This document shows positions 14,933 to 51,587 of a DNA stretch of 64,000 nucleotides, piece after piece; the stretch's first letter is position 1; every line of letters starts with the position of its first letter. A model generated the notes under the pieces. The model was not told the origin of the DNA. It saw only the letters and a program-made list of their open reading frames with translations, and made no database searches. The translations under genes were made by a program, and so were the position numbers. Origin of the DNA: Tabrizicola thermarum (GTDB lineage: Bacteria > Pseudomonadota > Alphaproteobacteria > Rhodobacterales > Rhodobacteraceae); assembly GCF_003574395.1 (NCBI RefSeq), contig NZ_QMJY01000083.1, forward strand, positions 124,001-188,000. The letters run 5' to 3'.

Positions 14933-16138
14933 TCAGGCCCGGCGCGCCTCGGGGCGCAGCCACAGCCAGATCAGCGCCCCGCCCGCCAGCACCAGGAAGG
15001 GCAGCATGGCCAGGTTGACCATCTGCCAGCCCGCCTGCACCGACCCGCCCGAACAGTTCATCAGCCCGCCCGACGAGAACGAGGCCAGCGTCACCCCGCC
15101 GAAGACGACAAGGTCGTTCAGGCCCTGCAAGCGGCCGCGCTCCTCGGGGCGCTGCGCGGCGGTCAGCATGGTCGTGGCGCCGATGAAGCCGAAGTTCCAG
15201 CCGAGGCCCAGAAGGATCAGGGCGATGAAGAAGTTTTCCAGCTGCACGCCGGCCATGGCGACGGCCCCGGCGGCAGCAAGGATGGTCAGGCCAAGCGCGA
15301 TGATTCTTTCGGTGCCGAAACGGGCGATCAGGTGGCCGGTGAAGAAGCTTGGCGCATACATCGCAAGGACATGGGCGGTGACCACATCCGCCGCATCGCC
15401 CTTGTCGAAGCCGCAGCCGACCACCGCCAGCGGCGACGATGTCATCACCAGGTTCATCAGCGCGTAGGAGACCGTGGCGCAGATCATCGCCACCAGGATC
15501 GTCGGGTTGCGCAGAAGCTCGGCCCGGGAGCGGCCAAGCGGGCTGCCGGCGACCGGGGGCTTCGGCTTCGGGATGTCAAGCGCAAGGAAGAGGAGCGAGC
15601 CGACAAGGTTCAGGCCGATCACCGTAAGGTAGGAGCCGAGGAAGGGCACGGCCATCTCGTCCGCGGTCAGTTTCACCAGTTGCGGGCCGAAGACGGCCGA
15701 GAGGAGGCCCCCCGCCATCACCCAGCTGATCGCCTTGGGCCGGAAGGCCTCGGACGCTGTATCTACAGCGGCAAAGCGGTAAAAGCCGTTCGCCGACATG
15801 TATATACCCGAGAAGACCGCGCCGATGCAGAAGGTCAGGAAGCTGCCTGTGGACAGGCCCCAGGCGCCGATCGCCGCGCCAAGCGCCCCGCCGCCTGCGC
15901 CGAAGAAGAATCCGGCGCGGCGACCGAACCGCTGCATCAGCATCGACAGCGGGGTGGCGGTCAGCATCGAGCCGATGACCATCATCGTGATCGGCAGCGT
16001 CGCCCAGCAGGCGTTGGGCGCAAGCGAGGACCCCGCCAGCCCGGCGATGGTGAAGATCATCGGCAGCTGCGCGCCCAGCACGGCCTGGGCGGCGACAAGG
16101 ACCAGAACGTTGCGGCGGGCGAGGGAGTCGGTGCTCAT
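14933..16138 (-). CDS. MFS transporter
   Basis: 401 aa with about twelve hydrophobic segments. The loop between helices 2 and 3 carries LSMLMQRFGRRAGFFFGA, the major-facilitator signature, and the second half contains a weaker copy (GHLIARFGTERIIALG). The upstream in-frame start at 16174 was rejected in favour of the ATG at 16138 (MSTDSLARRNVLVLVAAQ), after which helix 1 begins. Inner-membrane carrier; the substrate is not evident from sequence or from neighbours (a degenerate SQS-like protein and a DNA glycosylase). Two GTA(G/T)ATAC motif copies lie inside this gene at 15759 and 15800. Confidence 0.85.
   Translation of the reverse strand: MSTDSLARRNVLVLVAAQAVLGAQLPMIFTIAGLAGSSLAPNACWATLPITMMVIGSMLTATPLSMLMQRFGRRAGFFFGAGGGALGAAIGAWGLSTGSFLTFCIGAVFSGIYMSANGFYRFAAVDTASEAFRPKAISWVMAGGLLSAVFGPQLVKLTADEMAVPFLGSYLTVIGLNLVGSLLFLALDIPKPKPPVAGSPLGRSRAELLRNPTILVAMICATVSYALMNLVMTSSPLAVVGCGFDKGDAADVVTAHVLAMYAPSFFTGHLIARFGTERIIALGLTILAAAGAVAMAGVQLENFFIALILLGLGWNFGFIGATTMLTAAQRPEERGRLQGLNDLVVFGGVTLASFSSGGLMNCSGGSVQAGWQMVNLAMLPFLVLAGGALIWLWLRPEARRA
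15759..15766. repeat. GTA(G/T)ATAC motif copy 1
   Basis: GTATCTAC inside the 14-bp inverted repeat GCTGTATCTACAGC (15756-15769). Read on the coding strand of the MFS gene it gives GTA GAT ACA (Val-Asp-Thr), codons otherwise rare in this DNA. Confidence 0.6.
15800..15807. repeat. GTA(G/T)ATAC motif copy 2
   Basis: Perfect palindrome GTATATAC inside the MFS gene; it uses the rare Ile codon ATA (Gly-Ile-Tyr-Met). Confidence 0.6.
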
Positions 16139-16227
16139 GCGCCAAGGCGTAGACCTCGGGCAGGGTGGCGGCAAGGTGCGTTTTGCGGGGAGTTGCGGCT
16201 GGCGCGTGCGGATGCAAGGCTGCGGGC

Positions 16228-16857
16228 ATGGTGGGACGGATCATCCAGACGCTGGACTGCGTGGCCGAAGGGGCGGATTGGCTGGCCGCGCGCGAGCCGC
16301 GCTTTGCCCATGCTCTGACACTGGTGGACCCCTTGCCGCTGCGCCGCGAGCCGGATGGCTTTGCGGCCCTGCTGCGCGCCATTGTGGGTCAGCAGGTCTC
16401 GGTCGCCAGTGCCCGGGCGATCTGGGCGCGGCTTGAGGCGATGGGCCTGACCGAGGCCGAGGCGATGGCGGCGGCGTCTGATGAGGAGCTGCGGGCGGCT
16501 GGCCTGAGCCGCCAGAAGGCGCGCTATGGGCGGGCCTTGGCGCAGGCTGGCATTGATTTCAATGAGTTGCGCGATGTTCCTGATTCGGACGTGGTGAAGG
16601 CGCTGGTCGCGGTGCCGGGGATCGGAGTCTGGACGGCCGAGATCTACGCGATGTTCGCCTTGGGGCGGGCCGATGTCTTTGCGCCGGGCGATCTGGCCTT
16701 GCAGGAGGCCACGCGGATGCTGTTCGGGCTGGAGGCGCGGCCCTCGGACAAGGCGCTGCGAGGGATGGCCGAGGCCTGGTCGCCCTGGCGGTCGGTTGCG
16801 GCGCGCATTCTTTGGGCCTACTACCGCGTGGCGAAGGAACGGGACGGGGTGATCTGA
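16228..16857 (+). CDS. DNA-3-methyladenine glycosylase II (HhH-GPD family)
   Basis: 209 aa. HhH-GPD base-excision glycosylase: LLRAIVGQQVSVASA (residues 48-62), the helix-hairpin-helix LVAVPGIGVWTAEIYAMF (126-143) and the catalytic aspartate Asp155 in DVFAPGDLALQEA. No C-terminal iron-sulfur cysteines, so it belongs with AlkA-type monofunctional enzymes that remove alkylated purines rather than with Nth/MutY. No Ada-like N-terminal domain. The start at 16228 is preferred over the upstream in-frame one because the family N-terminus (MVGRIIQTLDCVAEGADWLA) begins there. It overlaps the esterase gene by one base (TGATG). Confidence 0.87.
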   Translation: MVGRIIQTLDCVAEGADWLAAREPRFAHALTLVDPLPLRREPDGFAALLRAIVGQQVSVASARAIWARLEAMGLTEAEAMAAASDEELRAAGLSRQKARYGRALAQAGIDFNELRDVPDSDVVKALVAVPGIGVWTAEIYAMFALGRADVFAPGDLALQEATRMLFGLEARPSDKALRGMAEAWSPWRSVAARILWAYYRVAKERDGVI

Positions 16858-17513
16858 TGCGGGAATTGCGGTTCGGCCGGAAGGGTGTGGCACAGGGCAG
16901 GGCGCGGTCGCTGATCGTCTTCCTGCATGGCTATGGCGCCGACGGGGCCGATCTGCTGGGTCTGGCCGATGTGCTGGCCCCGCATCTGAAGGACGCGGCC
17001 TTTGTCGCCCCGGACGCGCCGGAACGCTGCATCGGTGGCGGCTTCGGCTATCAGTGGTTTCCGATCCCGTGGCTTGACGGCTCGTCGCAAGCCGCGGCGG
17101 AGGCCGGAATGGCAGCCTCGGTCAAGGACTTGAACGCGTTTCTTGATGCACGGCTGGCCGAAGAGGGGCTGACGCCGGACCGGCTGGTGCTGGTCGGCTT
17201 CAGCCAGGGCGCGATGATGAGCCTGCATGTCGCCCCGCGCCGGGATCAGGCGGTGGCCGGGGTGGTGGCGATCTCGGGCAGGCTGCTGCGACCCGAGGCG
17301 CTGGCGGAAGAGGCGCGAGTCAAGCCGCCGGTGCTGTTGATCCATGGCGACCAGGATCCGGTGGTGCCATTCGACGACATGGCCCGGGCGGGCGATGCGC
17401 TGGTGGCGGCGGGGTTCCAGACCTATGGCCATGTGATGCAGGGCACCGGCCACGGCATCGCCCCCGATGGCCTGGGCGCGGCGTTGCAATTCATCAGGCA
17501 GGTTCTGGGATAG
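16857..17513 (+). CDS. Alpha/beta-hydrolase carboxylesterase (phospholipase/YpfH family)
   Basis: 218 aa, the usual size. Oxyanion segment IVFLHGYGADGADLL, nucleophile Ser in LVGFSQGAMMSL, acid in LIHGDQDPVVP and base in GTGHGIAPDGL form the catalytic triad of the small carboxylesterase group (abhydrolase_2). Such enzymes cleave short-chain esters or thioesters; several depalmitoylate or act on lysophospholipids. No signal peptide, so cytoplasmic. Translation is coupled to the DNA glycosylase through TGATG, a pairing that suggests co-expression rather than a common pathway. Convergent with glucokinase. Confidence 0.85.
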   Translation: MRELRFGRKGVAQGRARSLIVFLHGYGADGADLLGLADVLAPHLKDAAFVAPDAPERCIGGGFGYQWFPIPWLDGSSQAAAEAGMAASVKDLNAFLDARLAEEGLTPDRLVLVGFSQGAMMSLHVAPRRDQAVAGVVAISGRLLRPEALAEEARVKPPVLLIHGDQDPVVPFDDMARAGDALVAAGFQTYGHVMQGTGHGIAPDGLGAALQFIRQVLG

Positions 17514-17531
17514 GCCTTTCAGGCAAAAGTC

Positions 17532-18506
17532 TTACGCGGCATTGTGCAGATAGGCCGCACAGCCGGTCAGGGCGGCGTAGTCGTCCTCGACCACGGTGAC
17601 CGCGAAATCCTTGAGCAGAAGATCGACTCGCCGCGCCTCGCGGAACGAGGTTTGCAGGCCGAAGCCATCGAAATAGGGCGTCATCGCGCGGGACATGCCG
17701 CCGATCAGGAAGATGCCGCCATAGGGCAGGTGGATCAGCGCGAGATCACCCAGCATCTGACCGAGGATGTGTATATACAGGCGCGCGGCATGGGCGGCGA
17801 TGGGGTCGCCCGCCTCAAGCGCGGTCAGGACCTGGGCCGAGGTCATCTTTGAGGGATGGCCCGCGGCCTGGGCGGCAAAGGCGTGCAGGTTCGCCAGCCC
17901 GCGGCCGGCAAGCACTTCCTCGACCCCGGCATGGGGGACTTCGCCCTCGGCCCGAAGCCGCGCCTGCACGAAACGGGCAAGCTGGACGTCCTCTTCGGTT
18001 CGCACCGGCATGTTCACATGGCCACATTCCGAGGGCGGCACGACCCGGCCCTGCGGCCCGGGATGCACGGGGGCGGCGTTGACCCCGGTGCCAAGGCCCA
18101 CAACCAGCATGGACCCACCCGCCTTGACCGGCCCCTCGATGACCCTGCGCAGGTTGGCGGCCGGGATATGGCCAAGCGCATGTCCCTGCGCCTGAAGATC
18201 GTTCAGGATCGCCACCTTGCACGCGCCGGTCGCGGCTGTCAGCTTTCCGGCATCCATCACCCAGTCGAGATTGGTCATCGTGGCGACCCCGTCCTGCACC
18301 GGCCCGGCAGCGGCCACGCAGACCCCCGAAACGCTGGCCCCCGTTGCATCCAGATAATCGCGCAGCACATGGGCGATGTCCTGGCCGCGGGCCCGATACT
18401 CGGCGTTCGGATAGCGGCGGATCGAGTCGTGCCGGACGCTGGCGCCGTCGGCCAGCGCAACGCGCGTGTTGGTGCCACCGATATCGGCAAGGATCGCGAG
18501 GGTCAT
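17532..18506 (-). CDS. glk: Glucokinase (Glk family)
   Basis: 324 aa. The ATPase phosphate-1 motif is ILADIGGTNTRVALAD (residues 4-19), the sugar-binding Asn-Asp is in VAILNDLQAQGHAL, and the phosphate-2 loop is MLVVGLGTGVNAAPV; PPSECGHVNMPVR carries the glutamate-Cys-Gly-His conserved in bacterial Glk. It lacks the ROK zinc cysteines, so it is the Glk type, converting glucose and ATP to glucose-6-phosphate in the cytoplasm. A LacI-family regulator lies 85 bases upstream on the same strand. A GTATATAC motif copy lies within the gene at 17771. Confidence 0.9.
   Translation of the reverse strand: MTLAILADIGGTNTRVALADGASVRHDSIRRYPNAEYRARGQDIAHVLRDYLDATGASVSGVCVAAAGPVQDGVATMTNLDWVMDAGKLTAATGACKVAILNDLQAQGHALGHIPAANLRRVIEGPVKAGGSMLVVGLGTGVNAAPVHPGPQGRVVPPSECGHVNMPVRTEEDVQLARFVQARLRAEGEVPHAGVEEVLAGRGLANLHAFAAQAAGHPSKMTSAQVLTALEAGDPIAAHAARLYIHILGQMLGDLALIHLPYGGIFLIGGMSRAMTPYFDGFGLQTSFREARRVDLLLKDFAVTVVEDDYAALTGCAAYLHNAA
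17771..17778. repeat. GTA(G/T)ATAC motif copy 3
   Basis: Palindrome GTATATAC inside glk; on the coding strand CTG TAT ATA CAC, using the rare codon ATA. Confidence 0.6.
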
Positions 18507-18591
18507 CGGGCAGGTCCGTCGTTCAAGAGGCTGCTGCGTGATAGGGCGAAAGCGCCGGGCGCGCCAGAGGGTTCAAAGCGGTTCGGGCCGG

Positions 18592-19620
18592 TCAGCGCTG
18601 CGGAGCCGGTCCGGTGGACATGCCCTCGACCAGCTCGGCCTCGAGCAGGCGCTGGACCTCGCCCGCAGCGGGATTGGCGATCCGTGCCAGCAGCATTTCG
18701 GCCACAAGCCGCCCGGCCTCGCGCACCGAAGAGCGCATTGCGGTGAAGATCGGCCGGTCCTCGCCGTTCTTCATGTAGCTGAGGTCGTCGTCGAAGATGA
18801 TGACCGACACGTCGCGGCCAAGTTTCAGGCCCGCCCCTTCGACCGCGCGGCGGACGCCCATGCCCGAGAGCATCGAAGCGGCAACGAAAGCGGTGGGCGG
18901 ATCGGGAAGGTCGAGCATGGTATGGGCGGCGCGGAAGCCGGCGACCTCGGTCATCTCGTCCGAGGCCATGAGCGCGGGATCCGGCGCGATCTGCCGCGCA
19001 GCCAGCGCGTCCACATAGCCCCGGCGGCGGCGGATCGCGAAATCCATGAACTCCAGCCCGTTGACCAGCGCGATGCGCCGGTGGCCGAGGTCCAGCAGAT
19101 GTTCGGTCGCGCGCTGGAAGGCGCGGCGGTTGTTCACGTCCAGCCAGGAATAGTCCTCCGTCGCCCCGGTGGCGCGGCCATGGACCACGAAGGGCAGGCC
19201 GACCTCGCGCAAGAGGGGAATGCGGGGGTCGTTCTCGCGCGGGCCGTGGACGATGACGCCGTCGACATTGCCCTTCACCTTCATCGCACGGTAGGTCTGC
19301 GCTTCCTCTTCGTCGGGGACGACCGACAGGACCATGTCATAGTCGTTGCGGCTGTAGGTTTCGCCCGCACCGGCGATGAAATCGGCAAAGACCGGGTTCA
19401 CGATCTCATGCCGGTTGGCGATGGCGATCACATGGCCCACCGCCATGGCCCGGCCTGTCGCCAGCCGGATCGCACGGGTGTTCGGGTGATAGTTGTGCTC
19501 TTTCGCCGCCGCGATGACACGTTCGCGCGTCGCCTCGTTCACCTCGGGATAGCCGTTCAGCGCACGGGACACCGTGGTCGGCGACAGGCCGAGCCTCTGG
19601 GCAAGATCCTTCAGGTTCAT
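18592..19620 (-). CDS. LacI-family transcriptional regulator (AglR-like)
   Basis: 342 aa from the ATG at 19620; a GTG four codons upstream (19632) is an alternative and neither has a clear ribosome site. The N-terminal LacI helix-turn-helix MNLKDLAQRLGLSPTTVSRA with hinge GYPEVNEATRERV is complete. A periplasmic-binding-protein-like effector domain follows (about residues 60-340). Sequence style and adjacency to glucokinase resemble AglR, repressor of alpha-glucoside uptake, but no sugar transporter or glucosidase is within the window, so the regulon is unproven. No obvious LacI-type palindromic operator is seen in the 85 bases before glk. Confidence 0.85.
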   Translation of the reverse strand: MNLKDLAQRLGLSPTTVSRALNGYPEVNEATRERVIAAAKEHNYHPNTRAIRLATGRAMAVGHVIAIANRHEIVNPVFADFIAGAGETYSRNDYDMVLSVVPDEEEAQTYRAMKVKGNVDGVIVHGPRENDPRIPLLREVGLPFVVHGRATGATEDYSWLDVNNRRAFQRATEHLLDLGHRRIALVNGLEFMDFAIRRRRGYVDALAARQIAPDPALMASDEMTEVAGFRAAHTMLDLPDPPTAFVAASMLSGMGVRRAVEGAGLKLGRDVSVIIFDDDLSYMKNGEDRPIFTAMRSSVREAGRLVAEMLLARIANPAAGEVQRLLEAELVEGMSTGPAPQR

Positions 19621-19706
19621 CGGGCGGGGCACTCAATGCGGTTTGGATGCTGGGACCATAGCCACAGCCTGCCGATGCGTCAAAGCCTAAGGCGCCGGAG
19701 CTGGGG

Positions 19707-19832: not shown

Positions 19833-19878
19833 GGCTCCAGTTAACCGCGTGTAAGCTTTCTGTTCGGTTAATGGCGGC

Positions 19879-20685
19879 ATGACGAACTGCGACGGATTCG
19901 AGGGATTCCTGCCGTTCCAGCAAAGCCTGCCCTATGCGGTGGCGGCCGGGGCGAATGGCGCGCGGGCGGCATGGGTCGATCTGGACGGGGGCCGGGCGCT
20001 GGCGATCGAACGCGGGCGGCTGCGGCTGGTGTCGCGCGGGCCGGTCTTTGGCAGAGACCTCTCGCCGAACGACCAGCGCCGCGCCATGCGGCAACTGGCG
20101 CATTGGCCGGGAGTGACGATTGCCACGCCCGAGGTGCCTGTGACAGGCTTCGGCCTGATACCGCTGGTCACGCCGATGCATCACGCGATCTGGCGGCTGG
20201 GGCCTGATCTGCGCGCCGGACTGGCCGGGAAATGGCGCAACAGGCTGATGGCGGCGCTGCGGGCGGGCGTGGATGTCACAATGGGCACGCCCGCCACACT
20301 GGAGAAGCTCATCGGCGAGGAAGCGGTGCAGCGCCGCAGGCGCGGCTATCGCTGTCTGCCTCCCGGTTTTACGCGGGCGCTGCCCGCTGAGGCGCTGCGG
20401 CTGTGGGAGTGGCGGCATGACGGGGAAATCAGGGCCGCGATGGCCTTTGTCCGGCATGGCGGCTCGGCCACATACCACCTCGGCTGGGCCTCCGAGGCCG
20501 CGCGGCAACAGGGTGTGCATTCGGTGATGCTGATGACGGCGGCGGGCGCCTTGCAGGCGGAAGGGGTGCAGTGGCTGGACCTTGGGTCTGTAGATACAGA
20601 CCGCGCGCCGGGCCTTGCGCGGTTCAAGCTGGGAACGGGGGCGGCGCTGCACCGGTTGGGGGCGACCTGCCTGGTCTTGCCCTAG
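19879..20685 (+). CDS. GNAT/FemAB-like acyltransferase
   Basis: 268 aa. The C-terminal half resembles a GNAT domain: WRHDGEIRAAMAFVRHGGSATYHLGWAS (beta hairpin), EAARQQGVHSVMLMTAAGALQAEGVQWLDLGSV (acetyl-CoA-binding helix and following strand). The N-terminal half is FemAB-like (LPFQQSLPYAVAAGANG). Proteins of this build transfer acyl or aminoacyl groups to small molecules or peptides; the acceptor is unknown. Cytoplasmic. The segment 20585-20602 is an 18-bp interrupted palindrome that encodes Ser-Val-Asp-Thr-Asp with rare codons. The PhyH dioxygenase follows 42 bases downstream on the same strand, suggesting an operon. Confidence 0.7.
   Translation: MTNCDGFEGFLPFQQSLPYAVAAGANGARAAWVDLDGGRALAIERGRLRLVSRGPVFGRDLSPNDQRRAMRQLAHWPGVTIATPEVPVTGFGLIPLVTPMHHAIWRLGPDLRAGLAGKWRNRLMAALRAGVDVTMGTPATLEKLIGEEAVQRRRRGYRCLPPGFTRALPAEALRLWEWRHDGEIRAAMAFVRHGGSATYHLGWASEAARQQGVHSVMLMTAAGALQAEGVQWLDLGSVDTDRAPGLARFKLGTGAALHRLGATCLVLP
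20590..20597. repeat. GTA(G/T)ATAC motif copy 4
   Basis: GTAGATAC at the centre of GGTCTGTAGATACAGACC (20585-20602), 8-bp arms around GA. It lies inside the GNAT gene and reads GTA GAT ACA. Confidence 0.65.
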
Positions 20686-20727
20686 ACGGTCGTGCGGGGC
20701 AGGGTGGCGGCAAAGGGGAGATGCCGC

Positions 20728-21522
20728 ATGGTCACGGTGACAGAGGACATGGTCGAGGCCTATCAGCGCGACGGGGTCGTGCTGATCCGCGGGCTCTGGG
20801 CCGACTGGGTCGAGATGCTGCGCGCCGGGATCGCGCGGAACATGGCCAACCCGACGCACCAGATGGCGACGCTGAAACCCGGAGAGCCGGGGTATTTCTT
20901 CGACGACTATTGCAACTGGCAGAAGGTGCCCGAATTCGCGGCGGTGATCCGGCAGTCGCCGGCAGCCGAGGTTGCGGCGCAGCTGATGCGGTCGGACACG
21001 GTGCAACTGTTCCACGACCATGTCCTGGTCAAGGAGCCCGGCACCACCAAGCCCACCCCCTGGCACACCGACGGCCCCTATTACTTTGTCGAAGGCCGCC
21101 AGACCGTCAGCTTCTGGTCGCCGCTGGACCCGGTCAGGGAGGCCTCGCTGCGCTGTGTCGCGGGCAGCCACCTCTGGCCCAGGGACGTGCTGCCGACGCG
21201 CTGGATGTCCGAGACCAACTTCTATCCCGGCGACGACGACTACATGCCCGTGCCCGACCCCGAGGCCGAGGGGATGCGCATCCTGGAATGGGAGATGGAG
21301 CCCGGCGACGCGGTGGCCTTCCACTTCCGCACCCTGCATGGCGCGCGGGGGAACACGACGGCGAACCGGCGGCGGGCCTTCTCGCTGCGGCTTGTCGGCG
21401 ACGATGCGCGGTATGTGGAACGGCCGGGACCGACTTCGCCGCCCTTTCCCGGACATGGGATGCGGGCCGGGCAGCGGCTGCGGCCCGACTGGTTCCCGAA
21501 GATATGGCCGATCGGGACGTGA
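20728..21522 (+). CDS. Phytanoyl-CoA dioxygenase (PhyH) family oxygenase
   Basis: 264 aa. Fe(II)/2-oxoglutarate-dependent jelly-roll enzyme: facial triad His113 and Asp115 (PTPWHTDGPYYF) and His204 (FRTLHGARGN), with the 2-oxoglutarate-binding arginine in ANRRRAFSLR. GGGGAG eight bases before the ATG at 20728 decides the start against an in-frame ATG at 20692. Substrates in this family range from phytanoyl-CoA to ectoine and small natural products; nothing here fixes it. Transcribed with the upstream GNAT gene and followed, after 193 bases, by a TDT-family membrane protein. Confidence 0.85.
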   Translation: MVTVTEDMVEAYQRDGVVLIRGLWADWVEMLRAGIARNMANPTHQMATLKPGEPGYFFDDYCNWQKVPEFAAVIRQSPAAEVAAQLMRSDTVQLFHDHVLVKEPGTTKPTPWHTDGPYYFVEGRQTVSFWSPLDPVREASLRCVAGSHLWPRDVLPTRWMSETNFYPGDDDYMPVPDPEAEGMRILEWEMEPGDAVAFHFRTLHGARGNTTANRRRAFSLRLVGDDARYVERPGPTSPPFPGHGMRAGQRLRPDWFPKIWPIGT

Positions 21523-21565
21523 ATGAAAGGCGTCAGGCCATTGATCCAGAAATGCTTTCTGATCT

Positions 21566-21573
21566 GTAGATAC
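21566..21573. repeat. GTA(G/T)ATAC motif copy 5
   Basis: GTAGATAC in the non-coding spacer before the TDT-family gene, 38 bases from copy 6. Confidence 0.6.
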
Positions 21574-21603
21574 ATCTATGGATACATGCCGTCATCGCAC
21601 GTT

Positions 21604-21611
21604 GTATATAC
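21604..21611. repeat. GTA(G/T)ATAC motif copy 6
   Basis: Palindrome GTATATAC in the same spacer, 105 bases before the TDT start codon. Copies 5 and 6 are the only two outside genes. Confidence 0.6.
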
Positions 21612-21715: not shown

Positions 21716-22713
21716 ATGGCTGAACACCCGGTCCGGCACCGCCCGAAACTGTATCCGCCGCCCGAATTTCCACCGCGCAAGGTCGCGCTGTTCGCCAGGA
21801 CCCCGCCCGCGGTATTTCCGGTGATTCTGGGCCTTCTGGGGTTGGCCACGGCGCTGCGGATGGCGGCGGCGCAGTGGGGCACGGGGCAAGAGATCGCCGA
21901 CCTCGCAGCGGGACTTGCCGTGCCGGTCTGGGCCTTTGCGGTCCTTGCCTACAGCGTCAAGATCGTGCGACGGATCAGTGTGATAGCGGATGATCTTAAA
22001 GTCATGCCCGCGCGCGCCGGTCTGGCGGCGGCGACCATGGGGGGCATGGTTGCCGCCGGGCATCTTGGGGTCTTTGTGCCCAAGCTCGCGGTCCCGCTGC
22101 TGTTGCTGATGATCGCGCTGCACGCAGCGCTGGCCGTTCTGACAGTGCGGGTCCTCCTCGGGCTTCCGGCCGAGGCGCGACAGATCAATCCGGGTTGGCA
22201 CATGACCTTTGTGGGCTTCATCGTCGCGGCTCCTCCGGCGGCGATGCTGGGCCTGGACGAACTGGCGCGCGGCCTGCTCTTTCTGACGCTTCCGGTTGCG
22301 CTGGCGATCTGGGGTATCAGCCTTGCGCAACTGGCGCGACGGGTGCCGCCCGCCCCCCTGCGCCCGATGCTGGCGATCCATCTGGCCCCGGCAAGCCTGT
22401 TCGCCTCCACCGCGGCCCTGACCGGACTGCCCTTGCTTTCTGCAGGCTTCGGGCTTCTGGCGCTGGCGATCCTTCTGGCCCTGCTGGCCTCGTTGCGCTG
22501 GATCACGGAATCCGGGTTTTCGCCGCTTTTGGGGGCCTTCACCTTTCCGATGGCCGCCGCCGCGACAGCGCTGATGCAACAGGTCGGGGCGCTCGCCTGG
22601 GTGGGGCAGGGGCTTCTGCTGCTGGCGCTGGGGGTGATCCCCTGGATCGCCTGGCAGGTGCTGAGCCTGTGGCCGGGCGGGCGGCTGGCCGCCAGAACCA
22701 ACGCCGCCGAGGC

Positions 22714-22717
<4 letters not shown>
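21716..22717 (+). CDS. TDT-family (TehA/SLAC1-like) membrane channel
   Basis: 333 aa, about ten membrane helices after a short cytoplasmic N-terminus (MAEHPVRHRPKLYPPPEFPP). The helix hairpin pattern, with FARTPPAVFPVILGLLGLATALRM at the start and repeated small-residue helices, fits the tellurite-resistance/dicarboxylate (TDT) family whose members are trimeric anion channels or C4-dicarboxylate carriers. The ATG at 21716 follows AGAGGGAG; upstream in-frame codons to 21578 lie in the spacer and are not supported. It probably moves a small anion. Its stop overlaps that of the convergent amidotransferase gene by four bases. Confidence 0.8.
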
Positions 22718-32197: not shown

Positions 32198-32239
32198 CAT
32201 TTGCAGGAGAGAGGGGCACCTGGCCAAGTCTGGTAATCG

Positions 32240-32255
32240 CATAATCAATATTATG
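32240..32255. promoter_or_regulatory. AT-rich inverted repeat upstream of rpe
   Basis: CATAAT-CAAT-ATTATG, a perfect 6-bp interrupted palindrome in a 40-base AT-rich patch about 70 bases before rpe. It could be an operator or simply part of the rpe promoter; no known consensus was matched. Confidence 0.4.
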
Positions 32256-32325
32256 TAATGTAATGGCTTCTGGAAAGCCCGGTTTGGCCGGGATATGAGG
32301 CAAGGACGCCGCAAGGAGCCTGCCG

Positions 32326-33015
32326 ATGTTCGACCGCACCATCAAGATCGCCCCGTCCATCCTGGCGGCGGATTTTGCGAACTTCGGCGCAGAATGTCGC
32401 GCGGTCGAGGCCATGGGCGCGGATTGGGTGCATGTCGATGTGATGGACGGCCATTTCGTGCCGAACCTAACCTTCGGCCCGGCGATGTGCGCGGCGCTGC
32501 GGCCGCATATCAAGGGCGTGATGGATGTCCACCTGATGATCTCGCCTGTCGATGCCTATCTGGAGGCTTATGCCAAGGCTGGCGCGGACAACATCACGGT
32601 GCATGTCGAGGCAGGCCCGCACATTCACCGGAGCCTGCAAGCCATTCAATCCATGGGCAAAACTCCAGGCGTTGCCATCAATCCCGGAACCCCTGTCGAG
32701 GCCGTGGCCGAACTTCTGGACATGGTGGGCCTGGTCTGCGTGATGACGGTCAATCCTGGGTTCGGCGGTCAGGGCTTCATCGCCAGCCAGGTCGACAAGA
32801 TCGCGCGACTGCGGCAGATGATCGGCGACCGTCCGGTCCATATCGAGATCGACGGCGGGATTTCGGCGAAGACGGCGCCTCTGGTCACCAAGGCTGGGGC
32901 GAACGTGCTGGTGGCAGGCAACGCGGTGTTCTCTGGCGGGTCCGCGGATCAGCCCGCCGCCTATGGCGAAAACATCCGGTCGATCCGGGCTGCCGCCGAG
33001 GCCGCGATTGGCTGA
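32326..33015 (+). CDS. rpe: Ribulose-phosphate 3-epimerase
   Basis: 229 aa TIM barrel. [14 protein letters not shown] opens the fold, [19 protein letters not shown] carries the metal His/Asp, VHLMISP and [12 protein letters not shown] are the other active-site strands, and HIEIDGGI holds the second catalytic Asp. Interconverts ribulose-5-phosphate and xylulose-5-phosphate in the pentose phosphate and Calvin cycles. AAGGAG eight bases before the ATG. The start of gph overlaps its last eight bases. No other Calvin-cycle gene is near, so this is probably the housekeeping copy. Confidence 0.96.
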
Positions 33016-33676
33016 CGCGCTGAACCTTGTGTTCGACCTTGACGGCACGCTGATCGACAGTGCGCCGCAGATTCATGCGGCTGTGAATTCCGTGTTTGCT
33101 GCCAAAGGGTTGTCTGGCTTTTCTCAGGAAACCGTGCGAGGTTTCATCGGCAATGGTGTCGAAGTCCTGTTCGACCGGCTTCTGGCTTTCAAGGGGCTGA
33201 CGCATGACGCCGATCTGCAAGCGGAACTTGTCGGCAACTTTGTCAGGCTCTACGAAGAAGCCTTTGATCTGACGGCACTTTATCCTGGCGTATCTACAGC
33301 GGTTTCCGATCTTGCCGCGGCAGGGCATCACCTGGCGATCTGCACCAACAAGCCCGAGGGGCCGACCCATGCCGTGTTGCGGCATTTCGGGTTGGAGAAA
33401 TTCTTCACCGTCGTCGTCGGCGGAGACACCCTGCCCCGGCGCAAACCCGATCCGGCCCCTTTGCTGAGCGCGATATCTGCGCTTGGCCCGCGCCAGACGA
33501 TTTTCATCGGCGACAGCGAAGTCGACGCAGAGACCGCGCGCGCTGCCGATGTGCCCCTGGCACTGTTCACCCGGGGCTACCGAAGGACCGCACCCGAAGA
33601 TCTTTCCGCAAAGCTGATCTTCGACGATCATGCCGCCCTGCCCCGGTTGATCGCACATCTCGCACCGCGGCTTTGA
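33008..33676 (+). CDS. gph: Phosphoglycolate phosphatase (HAD family)
   Basis: 222 aa from a TTG start. HAD motifs: DLDGTLIDS (residues 9-17), ICTNKPEGP (motif II Thr), RRKPDPAP (motif III Lys) and [10 protein letters not shown] (motif IV). The open frame has no ATG near the family N-terminus; TTG at 33008 gives [13 protein letters not shown] and overlaps the rpe stop by eight bases, so the start call rests on homology and coupling. It removes phosphate from 2-phosphoglycolate made by Rubisco oxygenation or DNA repair; the rpe-gph pairing is common. Contains motif copy 7. Confidence 0.87.
33290..33297. repeat. GTA(G/T)ATAC motif copy 7
   Basis: GTATCTAC inside gph, read in frame as GTA TCT ACA (Val-Ser-Thr). 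Confidence 0.6.
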
Positions 33677-33851: not shown

Positions 33852-34637
33852 ATGCGTGATAGCTCGATTTTGCCGCTGCTGAACCGGATCGCCGCTTCGC
33901 AACGGATCGACGATGCCTGGAACCTCGCGACAGATTATTTTGCCGGGCTGGGTTTTGGCCGGGTCAATTACGGCTTCACACGGTTCAAGCATCTGAAAAC
34001 CATCGGCGACCCGGATGATGCGCTGTTCCTGACCACCTGCGATGCAGACTATGTCAAACGCTATTTCCAGGGGGGCTTCTACGCCAAGACGCCGGTCTTC
34101 CGCTGGGCCGAACAGAACGCCGGCATCTGCACCTGGTCCTGGGTGAAAGAGGCGTTCGAGGCGGGCAGGCTGTCGGCGGAAGAGGCCGAGGCGGTGCGGC
34201 AGAACGCGGCTCACGGCATTGTGGCCGGGATGTCGGTAAGTTTTCCTGAGGTGTTGTCGCGGTCCAAGGGAGCCATGGGCCTGATCGCCAATCCGGGGAT
34301 GAGCCCCGAGGATGTCGAAGCGATCCATGCCGCGCAGCGCGAGGAAATCCTGGCGGTCGCCAACATGATGCATCTTACCATCGTCCACCTGCCGCAACTG
34401 TCGCGGCATCGGGCGCTTAGCCCGCGGCAGCGCGAGGCGCTGGAATGGGTGGCCGATGGCAAGACGACGCAGGACGTGGCGCTGTTGATGGGGGTCAGCC
34501 CGGCGATGGTGGAGAAACATCTGCGCCTTGCCCGCGAGGCGCTGGCGGTCGAGACAACCGCGCAGGCGGTGGCCAAGGGTGCGCTTCTGAACATGATTTT
34601 CCAGCGCACGCCCGAACTGTCCCAGGCCGCGCGCTAG
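33852..34637 (+). CDS. Orphan LuxR-family regulator with degenerate autoinducer-binding domain
   Basis: 261 aa. N-terminal autoinducer-binding-like domain (about residues 20-165) and C-terminal LuxR helix-turn-helix LSPRQREALEWVADGKTTQ ... VSPAMVEKHLRLA (about residues 190-240). Aligned by the TraR invariant pattern W57-x3-Y61-x8-D70-P71, this protein has Tyr67, Tyr71, Thr80 and Pro81: the Trp and the amide-binding Asp are both replaced. There is no luxI-type synthase in the window. It may therefore sense a non-canonical ligand or none. It stands alone between a gph terminator and a 383-base non-coding region. Confidence 0.82.
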   Translation: MRDSSILPLLNRIAASQRIDDAWNLATDYFAGLGFGRVNYGFTRFKHLKTIGDPDDALFLTTCDADYVKRYFQGGFYAKTPVFRWAEQNAGICTWSWVKEAFEAGRLSAEEAEAVRQNAAHGIVAGMSVSFPEVLSRSKGAMGLIANPGMSPEDVEAIHAAQREEILAVANMMHLTIVHLPQLSRHRALSPRQREALEWVADGKTTQDVALLMGVSPAMVEKHLRLAREALAVETTAQAVAKGALLNMIFQRTPELSQAAR

Positions 34638-43926: not shown

Positions 43927-43937
43927 GAGGCAAGAGC

Positions 43938-46301: not shown

Positions 46302-46945
46302 CCACCGGCCCCATTCGTCTGGACATCTTCTCGGACCCGGTCTGCCCCTGGTGCTATGTCGGCAAGGCCAACCTCGACCGCGCTCTGGCCGATCACCCCG
46401 ACCACCCTTTCGTGATCCGGTGGCATCCGTTCCAGCTGAACCCGGACATGCCCGCAGAAGGCGTGGCAAAACGTGCCTACCTGGAGCAGAAGTTCGGTGG
46501 CAAGGACCGCGTCGAAGCGATCCACGAACGCCTGCGTGAGGTCGCCCGCGCCGCCGGCGTCGCCATGGACCCCGACCGACCGCAGCGGTTGCCGAACACG
46601 CTGAACGCCCACCGCCTGATCCACTGGGCGGGGATCGAGGGCGTGCAGGGCGCCGTGGTGGATGCCCTGATGCGCGCCTACTGGGCGGAAGGGCGCGACA
46701 TCGGCGACATTGAAACCCTCGCCGGAATTGCAGGCGAGAACGGCATGAATCGCGCGGCCACGCTGCGCCTGCTGCGCTCTGACGCCGATGCCGACGATAT
46801 CGCCGCCCGCGACCAGGACGCCCGCCACAAGGGGGTGACCGCCGTGCCGACCTTCCTGATCGCGCAGCAATATGTCGTCAGCGGCGCACAGCCGCCCGAG
46901 ACCTGGGGCAAGGTCATCGAAGAGCTGACAGGCCGCGCCGAGTGA
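46298..46945 (+). CDS. DsbA-family oxidoreductase (FrnE-like)
   Basis: 215 aa thioredoxin-fold protein. Cys16 and Cys19 in DPVCPWCYVGKANL form the active CxxC; the cis-Pro loop is GVTAVPTFLIAQQYVVSGAQ. No signal peptide, so it is the cytoplasmic FrnE/2-hydroxychromene-2-carboxylate isomerase-like group rather than a periplasmic DsbA. The start overlaps the ligase stop. In the operon with the acyl-CoA ligase and MFS it may take part in an aromatic or thiol-dependent step; that is inference. Confidence 0.85.
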   Translation: MTTGPIRLDIFSDPVCPWCYVGKANLDRALADHPDHPFVIRWHPFQLNPDMPAEGVAKRAYLEQKFGGKDRVEAIHERLREVARAAGVAMDPDRPQRLPNTLNAHRLIHWAGIEGVQGAVVDALMRAYWAEGRDIGDIETLAGIAGENGMNRAATLRLLRSDADADDIAARDQDARHKGVTAVPTFLIAQQYVVSGAQPPETWGKVIEELTGRAE

Positions 46946-48144
46946 TGCGGTCCCGCCCCTCCCAGACCGAATTCGTGGCGCTGGTCGCCATGCTGTTCGC
47001 CACCATCGCGATCTCGATCGACGCGATGCTGCCCGCCTTGCCCGAAATTGCCGCGACCCTCTCGCCCGAGACGCCTAACGCCGCGCAACTTGTCGTCACC
47101 AGCTTTGTCCTCGGGATGGGCATCGGCACCCTTTTCACCGGTCCCCTTTCCGACGCCTTCGGTCGCAAGCGCGTGATCCTCGTGGGCTCCGGCCTCTACG
47201 CCCTTTGCGCCCTCGCCTGCTATTTCGCGCCCAGCCTTGAAATCCTGCTGGCCGCACGCCTGTGCCAGGGCCTTGCCGCAGCCGCCCCCCGCACTGTGGC
47301 CATTGCGATGGTGCGCGACCTTCACTCGGGGCGCGAGATGGCGAGGATCATGTCCTTCGTGATGATGATCTTCACCATCGTCCCCGCCATCGCGCCCCTG
47401 ATGGGCCAGGGCATCATCGCCCTGGGCGGCTGGCAGTCGATCTTCCTTGCCTACATCCTCTTTGCCGGTCTCTCGATGCTCTGGCTGGGTCTTCGGCAGC
47501 CCGAGACGCTTCCGGCTGCCAACCGTCGCCCGCTTCACCTCGGCACCCTGTGGAGCGGAACGAAACACCTCTTCACCCATCGCATCGTTCTCGTCTCCAC
47601 GCTCCTCCAGACATTGACGCTGGCCTGCCTCTTCGCCACGCTTTCCAGCCTGCAAGGCATCTTCGAACGCCAGTTCGACCGGGCCGAGAGCTTCCCGCTC
47701 TGGTTTGCCCTCATCGCTGTGGCGTCGATGAGCGGCAGTCTCCTCAACTCCCGCATCGTGATGACGCTGGGGATGCGCCGCGTTGTGCGGCGCACCTATG
47801 CGGGTGTGCTGATCCTGTCGCTGATGGCCCTTGGCACCTTCACAAGCCTCGCATCGGGCAACGTCAGCTTCGCCATGCAAATGATTTGGAGCATTGGCCT
47901 TTTCTCGATGATGGGTCTCACCATCGGCAACCTCAACGCCCTGGCGATGGAACCGCTGGGCCACATGGCGGGCCTTGCCGCGTCGGTGATCTCCTCGCTG
48001 GCGACGGTCGGTTCGGTGATCCTCGCCATCCCGATCGGCCTTGCGTTCAACGGCACCTCGACGCCCCTCATCCTTGGCGTCACGGTCCTGACCGCGATCA
48101 ATCTGATCCTGTCGCTGAAGACCCTGGGCGAGCCGCGCGCCTAG
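46945..48144 (+). CDS. Bcr/CflA-type MFS drug exporter
   Basis: 399 aa, twelve membrane helices. ISIDAMLPALPEIAATL in helix 1 and TGPLSDAFGRKRVILVG after helix 2 are Bcr/CflA signatures, with a second loop VRDLHSGREMARIMSF. The ATG at 46945 forms TGATG with the DsbA-like stop; a GTG at 46942 is an alternative. Exports drugs or organic acids across the inner membrane. As third gene of the ligase operon it may export the ligase substrate or product. Convergent with mfd, overlapping it by four bases. Confidence 0.85.
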   Translation: MRSRPSQTEFVALVAMLFATIAISIDAMLPALPEIAATLSPETPNAAQLVVTSFVLGMGIGTLFTGPLSDAFGRKRVILVGSGLYALCALACYFAPSLEILLAARLCQGLAAAAPRTVAIAMVRDLHSGREMARIMSFVMMIFTIVPAIAPLMGQGIIALGGWQSIFLAYILFAGLSMLWLGLRQPETLPAANRRPLHLGTLWSGTKHLFTHRIVLVSTLLQTLTLACLFATLSSLQGIFERQFDRAESFPLWFALIAVASMSGSLLNSRIVMTLGMRRVVRRTYAGVLILSLMALGTFTSLASGNVSFAMQMIWSIGLFSMMGLTIGNLNALAMEPLGHMAGLAASVISSLATVGSVILAIPIGLAFNGTSTPLILGVTVLTAINLILSLKTLGEPRA

Positions 48145-51100
48145 CCCTTCTTTCCGGCCTTCACCACTTCGGCCAGATCGCGGGCAATGTTGAACGCTCC
48201 CTTGATCCGGTCGGCTTCCGTTTTCATCTCGCCGGCAAGCACGATCCGGTTGCCGTTCACCCGCGCCGCTGGGCCTTGCGCTTTCAGGAAGTCCACCAGA
48301 CCCGCCGGATTGGCGAACTTGTCGTTGTGGAACTGGATCGTCGCGCCCTTCGGTCCCGCGTCCAGCCGGGAAATCCCCGCCCGCTTGCACATCGCCTTGA
48401 TGCGCACGATCAGCATCAGCGTGTTCACTTCCTTCGGCAGCGGCCCGAACCGGTCGATCAGCTCGGCCGCGAACCCTTCAAGCTCTACCTTGGTCGTCAG
48501 CGAGGACAGGCGTCGATACAGCCCCAGCCGGATGTCGAGATCGGGTATATACGTCTCGGGGATCATCACCGGCACCCCGAGGTTCAGCTGCGGCGACCAG
48601 TCGTCGTCGATACTGGTCAGACCCTGCAGCTCGCCGGATTTGATCTTGGCGATCGTTTCCTCCAGCATGTACTGGTAAAGTTCATAGCCCACCTCGCGGA
48701 TATGGCCCGACTGCTCCTCACCCAGCAGATTGCCTGCGCCGCGGAGGTCGAGGTCATGGCTGGCAAGGTTGAACCCCGCGCCCAGGCTGTCGAGACTGCC
48801 CAGAAGCCGCAGCCGTTTCGTCGCCTGCGGCGTCAGCGGCGCGCGGGGCTTGGTCGTCAGATAGCAATAGGCGCGAGTCTTGGACCGCCCCACCCTGCCC
48901 CGGATCTGATAGAGCTGGCTTAGCCCGAACATATCCGCACGGTGGACAATCATCGTGTTCGCCGTAGGAATATCCAGGCCACTCTCAACAATCGACGTCG
49001 CCAGAAGCACGTCATACTTGCCGTCGTAGAACTGGTTCATCCGGTCATCCAGCTCGCCCGCCGCCAGTTGCCCATGCGCGATGACATATGTCGCCTCGGG
49101 GACGTGGGTCTTCAGGAAATCCTCGATCTCGGGCAGATCGGCGATGCGGGGCACGACGAAGAACGTCTGCCCGCCGCGATAGCGTTCGCGCAGGATCGCC
49201 TCGCGGATCGTGACCGTGTCGAATTCGGAAACGTAGGTGCGGATCGCCAGCCGGTCCACCGGGGGCGTCGCGATGATCGACAGATCGCGCACGCCGGTCA
49301 GGGACAGCTGCAAGGTCCGCGGGATCGGCGTCGCGGTCAGGGTCAGGACATGGACCTCCGACCGCATTTCCTTCAGCCGTTCCTTGTGGGCGACGCCAAA
49401 ATGCTGTTCCTCGTCGATGATCAGAAGCCCCAGCTTCTTGAAACTCACGCCCTTGGCCAGCAGCGCATGGGTGCCGACGACGATGTCAACCGACCCGTCC
49501 GCCATTGCCGCCCGGGTGGCATTGGCCTCCTTCGCTGGAACAAAGCGCGACAAGGGTTTGACCGAAATGGGAAATCCTCGGAACCGCTCGGCAAAGCTGC
49601 GATAGTGCTGGCGCGCCAGCAGCGTTGTCGGGCAGATCACCGCAACCTGCATCCCCGACAGCGCCGCCACGAAGGCCGCCCGCATCGCGACCTCGGTCTT
49701 GCCGAAGCCGACATCGCCCACGATGAGGCGGTCCATGGGTGAACCCTTTTCGAGGTCTGCCACCACATCGGCAATCGCCGCAAGCTGGTCGTCGGTCTCC
49801 TGATAGGGGAAGCGGGCCGCGAAGGCCTCCCAGATCGAATGCGGCGCCTCCAGGATCGGGGCGTGGCGCAAGGCCCGTTCGGCCGCGACCCGCATCAGCC
49901 GGTCGGCGATTTCCCTGATCCGTTCTTTCAGCCGGGCCTTCTTCGCCTGCCAGGCCCCGCCGCCGAGGCGGTCGAGAAGCCCCTCTTCATGCCCATAGCG
50001 GCTGAGCAGCTCGATGTTCTCGACCGGCAGATAGAGTTTCGCGTTCTCGGCATATTCCAGCGCCACGCAGGCATGGGGCGCGCCAAGGGCGGTGATCGTC
50101 TCGATCCCCAGATAGCGGCCCACGCCGTGTTCCACATGCACCACCAGATCGCCCGGGGACAGCGTGTCCACCTCGCGCAGGAAGTTGTCGGCCTTGCGCG
50201 TCCGGCGCGGCTTTGCGGTCAGCCGTTCGCCCAGCACGTCCTGTTCCGAAATCACCGCAAGGCCTGGCGCCACGAACCCCGCTTCCAGCGGCCAGACCAC
50301 CAGAAACAGCCCACCCTTCCCCTCGGGCACCTCGCGGAAATCCGCGATTTCCCTGGCGCCGGTCACACCATTGTCGGCCAGAAGTCCCTTCAACCGCTCG
50401 CGCGCGCCCTCGGACCACGAGGCGATGACCACCTGCGCCGTCTGCGCCAAGGTCTGAACATGTTCGGCCAAGGCAGCGAAAAGATTGATCTTCTCCTGCT
50501 GACGCTCGGGCGCGAAGTTCCGTCCGGCCCGCGCGCCCACATCCAGGACACCGGGCCCCGGCGACTGCGGCAAGGGCGAAAGCTGCACCACCCGGTGCCC
50601 GGCGATCGCCTGTTCCCAGGCCGCATCGTCCAGATACAGCTCCTCGGCCGGCACCGGCTTGTAGACCGTATCGATCCGCCCCCTGGCCCCCATGGCCTCG
50701 TGCCGCGCATCGTAGCTGTCCGCGATCCCCTCCCACCGCGCCAGCCGTGCGGCCGTCACCTGGTCGTCCAGCACCACCGAAGCGCCCGGCAGATAGTCGA
50801 AGATCGTCTCCAGCCGCTCATGGAAGAAGGGCAGCCAATGCTCCATCCCCTGGTGCTTGCGGCCGGCGCTGACCGCCTCATACAGCGGATCGTCCGTCCC
50901 CGCCGCGCCGAAGGCGATGCGGTAGTTCTGCCGGAACCGTGCGATCGCGGCCTCGTCGAGGATCACCTCGGAAACGGCGGAAAACTCGACCCTTTTCAGC
51001 TTTTCCGTGGTCCGCTGCGTTTCCGGGTCGAACCGCCGCGCGCCATCCAGAACGTCGCCGAAGAAATCCAGCCGGATCGGCCCGCCACGCCCGGGCGGAA

Positions 51101-51587
51101 AGATGTCCACGATGCCGCCCCGCAGGGCATAATCCCCCGGTTCGGCCACTGTAGATACAGGCGTGAACCCCATCCGCGCGAGGAACCCCTTCAGGCGCGC
51201 CTCGTCAACCCTCTCTCCCACCGAGGCCCGGAACGACGCCGCCCGCACCACCTCGCGCGTCGGAACCTTCTGTGTCGCGGCGTTCAGCGTGGTCAGCAGC
51301 ACGAAAGGCCCTGACAGCCCGTCGGCCAGTGTGGCGAGCGTCGCCATGCGCCGCGCCGAGATTTCGGGGTTGGGGCTGACCCGGTCGTAGGGCAGGCAGT
51401 CCCAGGCCGGGAAGTCCAGCACCACGGCCTCGGGCGCCATGACGGCCAGCGCCGCGCGCATCGCCTCGGCCCGCTTGTCGTCGCGCGCGATGTGGATGAC
51501 CGCCCCGCCCCGCGCCAGTTCGCGCTGAAGGATGCGGGCATCGAACCCTTCGGGTGCCCCGCCCATCAAGATGCGTTCAGCGGTCAT
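48141..51587 (-). CDS. mfd: Transcription-repair coupling factor
   Basis: 1148 aa. UvrB-homology region at the N-terminus, RNA-polymerase-interaction domain (GDLVVHVEHGVGRYLGIETI), then a RecG-like SF2 translocase with GDVGFGKTEVAMRAAF (Walker A), DEEQHFGVAHKERLK (motif II), TLTATPIPRTLQLSL (motif III) and the regulatory C-terminal domain. It removes stalled RNA polymerase and recruits UvrA. It lies 17 bases downstream of a small membrane-protein gene on the same strand. Two GTA(G/T)ATAC motif copies lie within it, at 48545 and 51151. Confidence 0.97.
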   Translation of the reverse strand: MTAERILMGGAPEGFDARILQRELARGGAVIHIARDDKRAEAMRAALAVMAPEAVVLDFPAWDCLPYDRVSPNPEISARRMATLATLADGLSGPFVLLTTLNAATQKVPTREVVRAASFRASVGERVDEARLKGFLARMGFTPVSTVAEPGDYALRGGIVDIFPPGRGGPIRLDFFGDVLDGARRFDPETQRTTEKLKRVEFSAVSEVILDEAAIARFRQNYRIAFGAAGTDDPLYEAVSAGRKHQGMEHWLPFFHERLETIFDYLPGASVVLDDQVTAARLARWEGIADSYDARHEAMGARGRIDTVYKPVPAEELYLDDAAWEQAIAGHRVVQLSPLPQSPGPGVLDVGARAGRNFAPERQQEKINLFAALAEHVQTLAQTAQVVIASWSEGARERLKGLLADNGVTGAREIADFREVPEGKGGLFLVVWPLEAGFVAPGLAVISEQDVLGERLTAKPRRTRKADNFLREVDTLSPGDLVVHVEHGVGRYLGIETITALGAPHACVALEYAENAKLYLPVENIELLSRYGHEEGLLDRLGGGAWQAKKARLKERIREIADRLMRVAAERALRHAPILEAPHSIWEAFAARFPYQETDDQLAAIADVVADLEKGSPMDRLIVGDVGFGKTEVAMRAAFVAALSGMQVAVICPTTLLARQHYRSFAERFRGFPISVKPLSRFVPAKEANATRAAMADGSVDIVVGTHALLAKGVSFKKLGLLIIDEEQHFGVAHKERLKEMRSEVHVLTLTATPIPRTLQLSLTGVRDLSIIATPPVDRLAIRTYVSEFDTVTIREAILRERYRGGQTFFVVPRIADLPEIEDFLKTHVPEATYVIAHGQLAAGELDDRMNQFYDGKYDVLLATSIVESGLDIPTANTMIVHRADMFGLSQLYQIRGRVGRSKTRAYCYLTTKPRAPLTPQATKRLRLLGSLDSLGAGFNLASHDLDLRGAGNLLGEEQSGHIREVGYELYQYMLEETIAKIKSGELQGLTSIDDDWSPQLNLGVPVMIPETYIPDLDIRLGLYRRLSSLTTKVELEGFAAELIDRFGPLPKEVNTLMLIVRIKAMCKRAGISRLDAGPKGATIQFHNDKFANPAGLVDFLKAQGPAARVNGNRIVLAGEMKTEADRIKGAFNIARDLAEVVKAGKKG
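48545..48552. repeat. GTA(G/T)ATAC motif copy 8
   Basis: Palindrome GTATATAC within mfd, encoding Thr-Tyr-Ile-Pro with the rare codon ATA. Confidence 0.6.
51151..51158. repeat. GTA(G/T)ATAC motif copy 9
   Basis: GTAGATAC near the 5' end of mfd; on the coding strand GTA TCT ACA (Val-Ser-Thr). Confidence 0.6.

Follow-up and report, generated by a model that had tools for sequence, protein, structure and literature searches.

A short DNA motif clustered beside the replication origin and around dif suggests a recently evolved chromosome-organizing system in one group of Rhodobacter-like bacteria

Introduction

In Enterobacteria and Vibrio, the terminus region carries short repeated sites, matS, that are read by MatP, a small DNA-binding protein with a ribbon-helix-helix (RHH) domain. 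RacA/ram, Noc, and SlmA likewise involve sequence-specific site arrays of biased distribution and couple DNA to the poles or to division. The matS sites are described as 13-mers spread over 800 kb (PMC7188993). In the alphaproteobacterium Caulobacter, ZapT shows intragenic, terminus-biased binding (PMC7188993, PMC7858052), while in Myxococcus xanthus the RHH protein CdbA is presented as a nucleoid-associated protein important for chromosome organization (PMC10313047). Another RHH protein, BrnA, has its RHH at the C terminus and is described as controlling transcription of brnTA (PMC11980606). Here we examine the motif GTAKATAC in a 64,000-nucleotide stretch of the Tabrizicola thermarum genome (contig NZ_QMJY01000083.1, positions 124,001 to 188,000; hereafter the window), its distribution in related genomes, and a BrnA-type protein that may bind it.

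The T. thermarum sites resemble each of these systems in part. Like matS, they are short and repeated around the terminus; unlike matS, they also cluster beside the replication origin (ori), and their sequence differs from that of matS. MatP itself was found in none of the 32 genomes of the GTDB genus, whereas the Escherichia coli control was detected. RacA/ram, Noc, and SlmA involve other proteins and motifs and arrays that are ori biased or excluded from the terminus (ter) and are not known to occupy both. ZapT shares the intragenic, ter-biased placement, but it belongs to the MerR family, no consensus motif is reported for it (PMC7188993, PMC7858052), and its gene also occurs in relatives that lack the motif. 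CdbA is an RHH protein with an organizing role, as proposed for our candidate, but it is described as having >550 sites, moderate specificity, and cyclic di-GMP binding (PMC10313047). BrnA is closest: the candidate belongs to the same Pfam family and has GTANNTAC in its promoter, as do five of nine brnTA operons, but it is an orphan without an adjoining brnT, and dozens of additional sites lie at ori and dif. Among the literature titles and abstract openings searched, none concerned this motif or a BrnA array at ori plus ter, and nothing joined Tabrizicola with chromosome segregation.

Results

Motif sites concentrate in two zones of the chromosome

All nine copies of GTAKATAC listed in a preliminary description of the window, made from its sequence, are present where they had been placed. 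They amount to 13 strand hits, because GTATATAC is its own complement; 100 dinucleotide shuffles put the expectation at 0.03, and no shuffle exceeded 1. GTATATAC is also the top 8-mer of the window, with 8 occurrences on both strands versus 0.02 expected under an order-1 Markov model. The guanine-plus-cytosine (GC) content, assumed in the description to be about 66%, measured 63-69% in 4-kb steps. Its other particulars held as well: the motif is extended to TGTAGATACA at four copies, one copy is embedded in an 18-bp interrupted palindrome, GGTCTGTAGATACAGACC (20585-20602), and six of the nine are packed into 15.7-21.7 kb. Seven copies lie within genes, whose ends are our own simple calls, and two (21566 and 21604) are intergenic. 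The genic copies use all three reading frames and bring in TAT and TCT codons in addition to the GTA, ACA, and ATA already noted. Pooled across sites, the motif profile reads YGTAKMTACR.

The window is the predicted replication terminus, marked by a dif-type site. The dif core, CGCATAATCAATATTATGT, has a single match in this genome and likewise a single one in each of 16 further members of the genus, its center being variable; no match with at most one mismatch was found in the other 15 of the 32. The cumulative GC skew of the window's contig, C76, is highest in the bin C76:150,001-160,000, corresponding to window 26-36 kb, with further local sign changes on the contig. In the whole genome (3.65 Mb, 76 contigs), the motif gives 62 strand hits at 41 places, of which 23 are on contig C74, 12 on C76, and 6 elsewhere. 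Genome-wide, 35 of 41 places are thus concentrated on two contigs, which runs counter to the refuting outcome named in the description, a count close to the shuffled expectation. By its gene content, C74 is the predicted origin region: Pfam matches include ParB, ParA, GidA/MnmG, MnmE, and Rho, and the contig carries two canonical parS sites (C74:146044 and 147946), from whose consensus the motif differs. On this contig, which stops at 175 kb, the cumulative GC skew is lowest in the bin 150,001-160,000. The C74 places lie 3.4-77.7 kb from parS, all on one side; the other side has only 29 kb of contig.

The same two zones appear in G022, a 4.3-Mb genome in large contigs. Of its 46 motif places, 25 fall within 160 kb around parS and 13 within 200 kb around dif, so that 38 occupy 360 kb of the 4.3 Mb and 8 lie elsewhere; P values for such clustering are to be read with the zones having been set after the sites had been seen. 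The ori cluster of G022 is one-sided: 22 of 25 places are found to the parS side of the point where the skew changes. Around dif, 10 of 13 places are on one side, which GC skew places on the same arm as the ori cluster. In T. thermarum, the dif cluster is even (6 + 6). The cluster beside parS is denser than that around dif; the sites are therefore not confined to the terminus. Six species share motif pairs set at constant distances: 374 bp for a pair in the proline racemase region, 518 bp for one in a GidA-family gene. Near-copies lie within 60 bp of the motif more often than expected (51 versus 2.4 around 131 sites), and certain neighboring sites are spaced 9-13 bp. One dense stretch spans an operon for proline racemase, a flavin adenine dinucleotide (FAD) oxidoreductase, and a dihydrodipicolinate synthase (DHDPS)-type protein, plus its GntR regulator.

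Motif-bearing species fall on one side of a weakly supported genus tree

Among 25 genomes of the genus, strand hits number 34-75 in 13 genomes, 2-20 in 11, and 29 in G019; G242, counted apart from this set, has 57. G019, whose hemD lacks the motif, was classed as motif free. For five genomes (G238, G240, G241, G243, and G244), the class was assigned from hemD alone, with the dif locus as a further ground for G241, and two were left unclassed (G013, with a cut hemD, and G239, with no hemD hit), giving 15 motif-bearing and 15 motif-free genomes. We used a tsaD tree of these 30 genomes because the dif-locus tree was noisy, with long branches. One branch separates the 15 motif-bearing species from the rest; its support is weak (66/84), and 69% of bootstrap trees need a single change. 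A family-wide motif was rejected: in one genome from each of 197 other genera of the family, no GTATATAC excess was comparable to that of T. thermarum (21 versus 0 in the control).

Motif-free DNA from ori, dif, and other stretches of five genomes (800 kb) contains 1 site. The gene content of motif-free dif flanks is largely that of T. thermarum, and its own genes within about 30 kb of dif are mostly matched in the motif-free flanks examined, on which ground a clade-specific gene beside dif was rejected. A substitute dyad motif was sought in motif-free G007 and likewise rejected, the best candidate reaching z = 8, whereas the motif scored 26-42 in six of the seven zones tested from motif-bearing genomes; in the seventh, the ter zone of G024, the test did not pick up the motif.

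An orphan BrnA-type protein is the likely binder

Spacings of 9-13 bp brought to mind RHH proteins that read 8-bp boxes. The likely binder is an orphan protein of the BrnA antitoxin family. In T. thermarum, a 96-amino-acid (aa) gene adjoining hslV matches Pfam BrnA_antitoxin (PF14384) with an E value of 1e-17 and 64.7 bits, versus a cutoff of 26.1, and seven orthologues also exceed the cutoff (60.6-65.7 bits), making eight of eight. The gene is present in all eight motif-bearing genomes examined (G000, G001, G024, G022, G009, G008, G242, and G012). The proteins have 92-96 aa and 70-85% identity to that of T. thermarum; residues 6-16, 52-62, and most of 67-92 are invariant, and the middle is variable. 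The gene lies 12-14 kb from parS (20.5 kb in G242). In all six motif-free genomes compared (G007, G238, G003, G244, G004, and G021), it is absent between hslV and the neighboring gene, whose alignments end 6-9 bp apart (distances being those between alignment ends); the rest of those genomes was not searched.

Each of the eight orphan genes has an exact GTATATAC within 180 bp upstream; four of the promoters hold two or three additional GT....AC boxes, and the other four hold near-copies identified by eye. No brnT adjoins the gene in G000, G001, G022, G024, or G009, where there is no room for one, and in G242 the hslV-facing flank lies outside the data. G008 and G012 have additional DNA between hslV and the RHH gene, but it is taken up by a single frame of 404-414 aa (L252:1585-2829 and L254:2901-4115), much longer than BrnT and not seen in G009 or T. 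thermarum.

Promoters of brnTA operons carry similar boxes, which points to the motif being the operator of a BrnA-type RHH protein. From 851 records we chose, for variety, 12 plasmid stretches with BrnA relatives, nine of them with annotated BrnT; they include two near-identical Acinetobacter pairs. In five of the nine operons, GTANNTAC occurs in the 180 bp upstream of brnT: as GTATATAC and GTACATAC in Salinibacter, GTATCTAC in Synechococcus, GTAACTAC in Diaphorobacter, and GTATATAC in one Acinetobacter pair. The density is 6 sites in 1620 bp of promoter DNA versus 1 in 18,317 positions elsewhere.

Motif sites are conserved as DNA

The preliminary description had proposed that selection acts on the DNA and not on the protein. 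That view is supported by motif-free orthologues and by codon-matched conservation. At aligned coding positions, the motif is retained in 17 of 25 cases in G001, 22 of 29 in G022, and 13 of 25 in G024, and at kept sites, swaps occur at the two central bases. In contrast, none of 38 aligned orthologous positions in five motif-free species of the genus carries it, a count in which some alignments may be to paralogues (e.g., that of G004 to the racemase operon). For the codon-matched test, we took residues conserved between species and encoded by TAT, ATA, GTA, ACA, CTA, TCT, or AGA with the third base in the motif. Codon identity within the motif exceeded that outside in all three close relatives: 38/42 versus 603/1248 in G022 (P = 1.4e-8), 31/37 versus 594/984 in G001 (P = 2e-3), and 25/33 versus 561/1178 in G024 (P = 1e-3). 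ATA codons alone gave 12/14 versus 11/41, 11/12 versus 10/31, and 7/10 versus 6/37, respectively.

In hemD (Pfam HEM4), the motif tracks amino acid differences. At least one exact box occurs in 15/15 motif-bearing genomes and in none of the 15 motif-free ones, evidence that is not independent for the five genomes classed by this gene. At the boxes, HemD has Y and V in 15/15 motif-bearing genomes; among the motif-free ones, H is found in 15/15 and V in 0/15. At C74:98930-98998, about 47 kb from parS, four species share blocks of conserved DNA in hemD, among them several half sites (GTATCTTTACARGTGTATCTACAG), and this segment may be a strong nucleation site.

The copies in the window and their fate in relatives are listed below, together with the dif-type site, whose name and 28-bp limits we assume by analogy with E. 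coli dif.

15759..15766, minus strand: motif copy GTAGATAC (extended form TGTAGATACA) in a major facilitator superfamily (MFS) transporter gene (14933-16138, minus strand), codons GTA GAT ACA; retained in G022, absent from G001, G024, and motif-free G004, G023, and G244
15800..15807, palindromic: motif copy GTATATAC in the same MFS transporter gene (14933-16138, minus strand), codons GGT ATA TAC; retained in none of G001, G022, and G024
17771..17778, palindromic: motif copy GTATATAC in a glucokinase gene (17532-18506, minus strand), codons CTG TAT ATA CAC; same codons in G001, G022, and G024, absent from motif-free G004, G023, G238, and G244
20590..20597, plus strand: motif copy GTAGATAC in a GNAT acetyltransferase gene (19879-20685), at the center of the palindrome 20585-20602; retained in none of G001, G022, and G024, which read GTCGATAC there
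21566..21573, plus strand: motif copy GTAGATAC, intergenic between PhyH (20728-21522) and SLAC1-type (21716-22717) genes
21604..21611, palindromic: motif copy GTATATAC in the same intergenic stretch
32234..32261, plus strand: dif-type site (XerCD recombination site), core CGCATAATCAATATTATGT at 32238-32256
33290..33297, minus strand: motif copy GTAGATAC in a haloacid dehalogenase (HAD)-hydrolase gene (33008-33676), codons GTA TCT ACA, at a distance of 1.05 kb from dif; of 17 dif loci, 5 (G000, G011, G241, G012, and G008) show a motif at +1051/+1052, some of the 17 being too short to tell, and no motif at this position in G022 and G005; the gene was not found in the stretches searched of G001, G022, and G024
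48545..48552, palindromic: motif copy GTATATAC in mfd (48141-51587, minus strand), codons ACG TAT ATA CCC; retained in G022 only
51151..51158, plus strand: motif copy GTAGATAC in mfd, codons GTA TCT ACA; same codons in G022 and G024, different codons for Val-Ser-Thr in G001 and motif-free G004, G023, G238, and G244

Discussion

The sites, their two zones, their conservation as DNA, the co-occurrence of gene and motif in the genomes examined, the motif in the orphan promoter, and the similar motifs in promoters of several unrelated brnTA operons are established by sequence. The orphan protein very probably binds the sites, and with the motif present in its promoter, autorepression is very likely. 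From the distribution of the sites, their intragenic placement, and carrier genes without a common theme, we infer that their function is fairly probably chromosome organization or segregation rather than gene regulation. Our preferred reading, held with moderate confidence, is that a BrnA-type operator has been recruited to mark ori- and ter-proximal DNA, in a manner like matS/MatP in its working but unrelated to it. In such a system, 30-40 copies would have been fixed through point mutation, mostly within unrelated genes, in two zones, the ori flank about 3-80 kb from parS and the region from about -18 to +150 kb around dif. Dimers on the boxes, some closely paired, would form nucleoprotein clusters, and these might compact or bridge ori-proximal and ter-proximal DNA or tether DNA at a cell site, in the way of MatP on matS or RacA on ram. 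The fuller scenario, in which an orphan antitoxin protein was acquired once near ori and became a two-zone organizer that bridges the ori and ter flanks or holds them at cell poles, is a tentative one that we think somewhat doubtful.

Several observations weigh against recruitment of a BrnA-type operator. Many sites turn over between relatives, the window's own copies included. When all 8-mers of the same genes serve as a plain control, which takes no account of the site codons being rare ones, site identity is above control in G022 (18/27 versus 34%), with no excess in G001 (14/23 versus 61%) or G024 (9/23 versus 36%); synonymous-site conservation thus holds in all three relatives against codon-matched codons and in one against plain 8-mers. 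With gene and motif confined to one side of the tree, their co-occurrence is in effect one evolutionary event, and the locus comparison covers 8 of the 15 genomes with the motif and 6 of the 15 without it; for G014, G016, and G020, also motif free, the sequence retrieved did not include the hslV locus. Among the brnTA operons, the two from Rhodobacterales have GTGTACAC in place of GTANNTAC (one with an adjoining GTGCACAC), the second Acinetobacter pair has no box in the 180 bp upstream, and GTANNTAC is missing at three BrnA genes of Rhizobium for which no brnT is annotated. The RHH fold of the orphan protein rests on the Pfam match because the AlphaFold monomer is poor: pLDDT (predicted local distance difference test) is 62 and pTM (predicted template modeling) is 0.31, with helices at 62-70 and 75-94 in the presumed RHH region, too poor for a fold search. 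The protein has no sequence match in PDB. Its binding to the sites is deduced from sequence comparison.

The GTGTACAC-type boxes of the Rhodobacterales plasmids (L255 and L256) are spaced 13 bp, and their occurrence suggests that, within BrnA, operators differ in the third base of either half.

Alternatively, the RHH protein might bind the motif mainly to regulate genes, its intragenic sites blocking or tuning those near ori and ter, which we regard as unlikely. Antitoxins of the BrnA kind are described as autorepressors (PMC11980606), the dense stretch mentioned above spans an operon with its GntR regulator, and seven T. thermarum sites were called intergenic, two of them later placed in hemD. 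Against this, the carriers are unrelated (UreF, molybdopterin oxidoreductase, NuoF-type, HemD, HemN-type, GidA-type, Mfd, glucokinase, MFS, and HAD), genic sites occur in all three frames, the dif-flank genes are common to motif-free species, and a regulon would not be expected to be limited to the ori flank and dif. It is less probable still that the sites act as a titration device or cell cycle timer, absorbing an autoregulated protein whose free level shifts as the ori-side and then the ter-side sites replicate. The position of the gene near parS, the operator in its promoter, and the expectation that one site group replicates early and the other last would fit, but single sites hold conserved positions beyond what a pure sponge would need.

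That the motif is what ZapT, the MerR-type protein binding the Caulobacter terminus, recognizes seems very unlikely. The peaks of ZapT are described as mostly intragenic and near ter, with no consensus found (PMC7188993), and T. thermarum has a MerR gene adjoining an ihf-type gene 206 kb from dif (in L192, a Bac_DNA_binding gene is followed by the MerR gene). However, this gene is present in 31 of the 32 genomes of the genus, including motif-free ones, and the DNA-binding domain that it encodes hardly differs between the two groups (the two unclassed genomes being counted as motif free in this comparison); the motif is therefore not readily explained by ZapT, which would also leave the ori cluster unaccounted for. 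Least probable of all, and barely credible to us, is a relic of a mobile element, a restriction site, or mutational bias. The RHH gene does look acquired, being missing between the same neighbors in six motif-free genomes, but the sites are base differences inside alignable host genes, are conserved above the codon-matched control, and share positions among several species. As for the roles raised in the preliminary description, organization, segregation, or replication gains from the clusters around dif and beside parS/ori, whereas DNA uptake loses ground, because uptake sites would be expected genome-wide.

A second replicon or plasmid origin was also rejected: plasmids matched the window and C74 queries only in part, never over 80% of the query, and parABS and gidA are located on C74.

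If the sites do mark ori- and ter-proximal DNA, they, and probably the protein, would have arisen within one GTDB genus, beside relatives without both. MatP/matS is old and fixed in its group, and the gain of dozens of organizing sites is hard to study where a system has that age. Sister species with the same dif-flank genes and no sites would then provide a natural before/after pair for the birth of such a system. A part of a toxin-antitoxin module would have turned chromosome architect, and alphaproteobacteria would have a site system with a defined motif, in which ori/ter organization is tied to one small gene.

Additional observations

In the ZapT-like MerR protein (L192:1474-2118; orthologues L197-L226), one residue ahead of the recognition helix differs between most rows of the two groups: D occurs in 13 of the 14 motif-bearing rows, and E in 13 of the remaining 16, which include two unclassed genomes. 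This difference may reflect phylogeny only.

A lone intergenic GTATATAC with GG/CC flanks is conserved upstream of a GerE/LuxR-type regulator gene (L004:1501, corresponding to C11:60665 in T. thermarum; L144:2047 in G022; L158:2046 in G242), with an ABC ATPase gene adjoining in T. thermarum. It was rejected as a member of the motif, since its flanks differ from the motif profile, and it looks like the operator of a separate regulator.

Within the window, an autoinducer-binding LuxR-type regulator is encoded at 33852-34637 (plus strand), 1.6 kb from dif. A gene of this type also lies near dif in motif-free G004, G238, G244, and G023.

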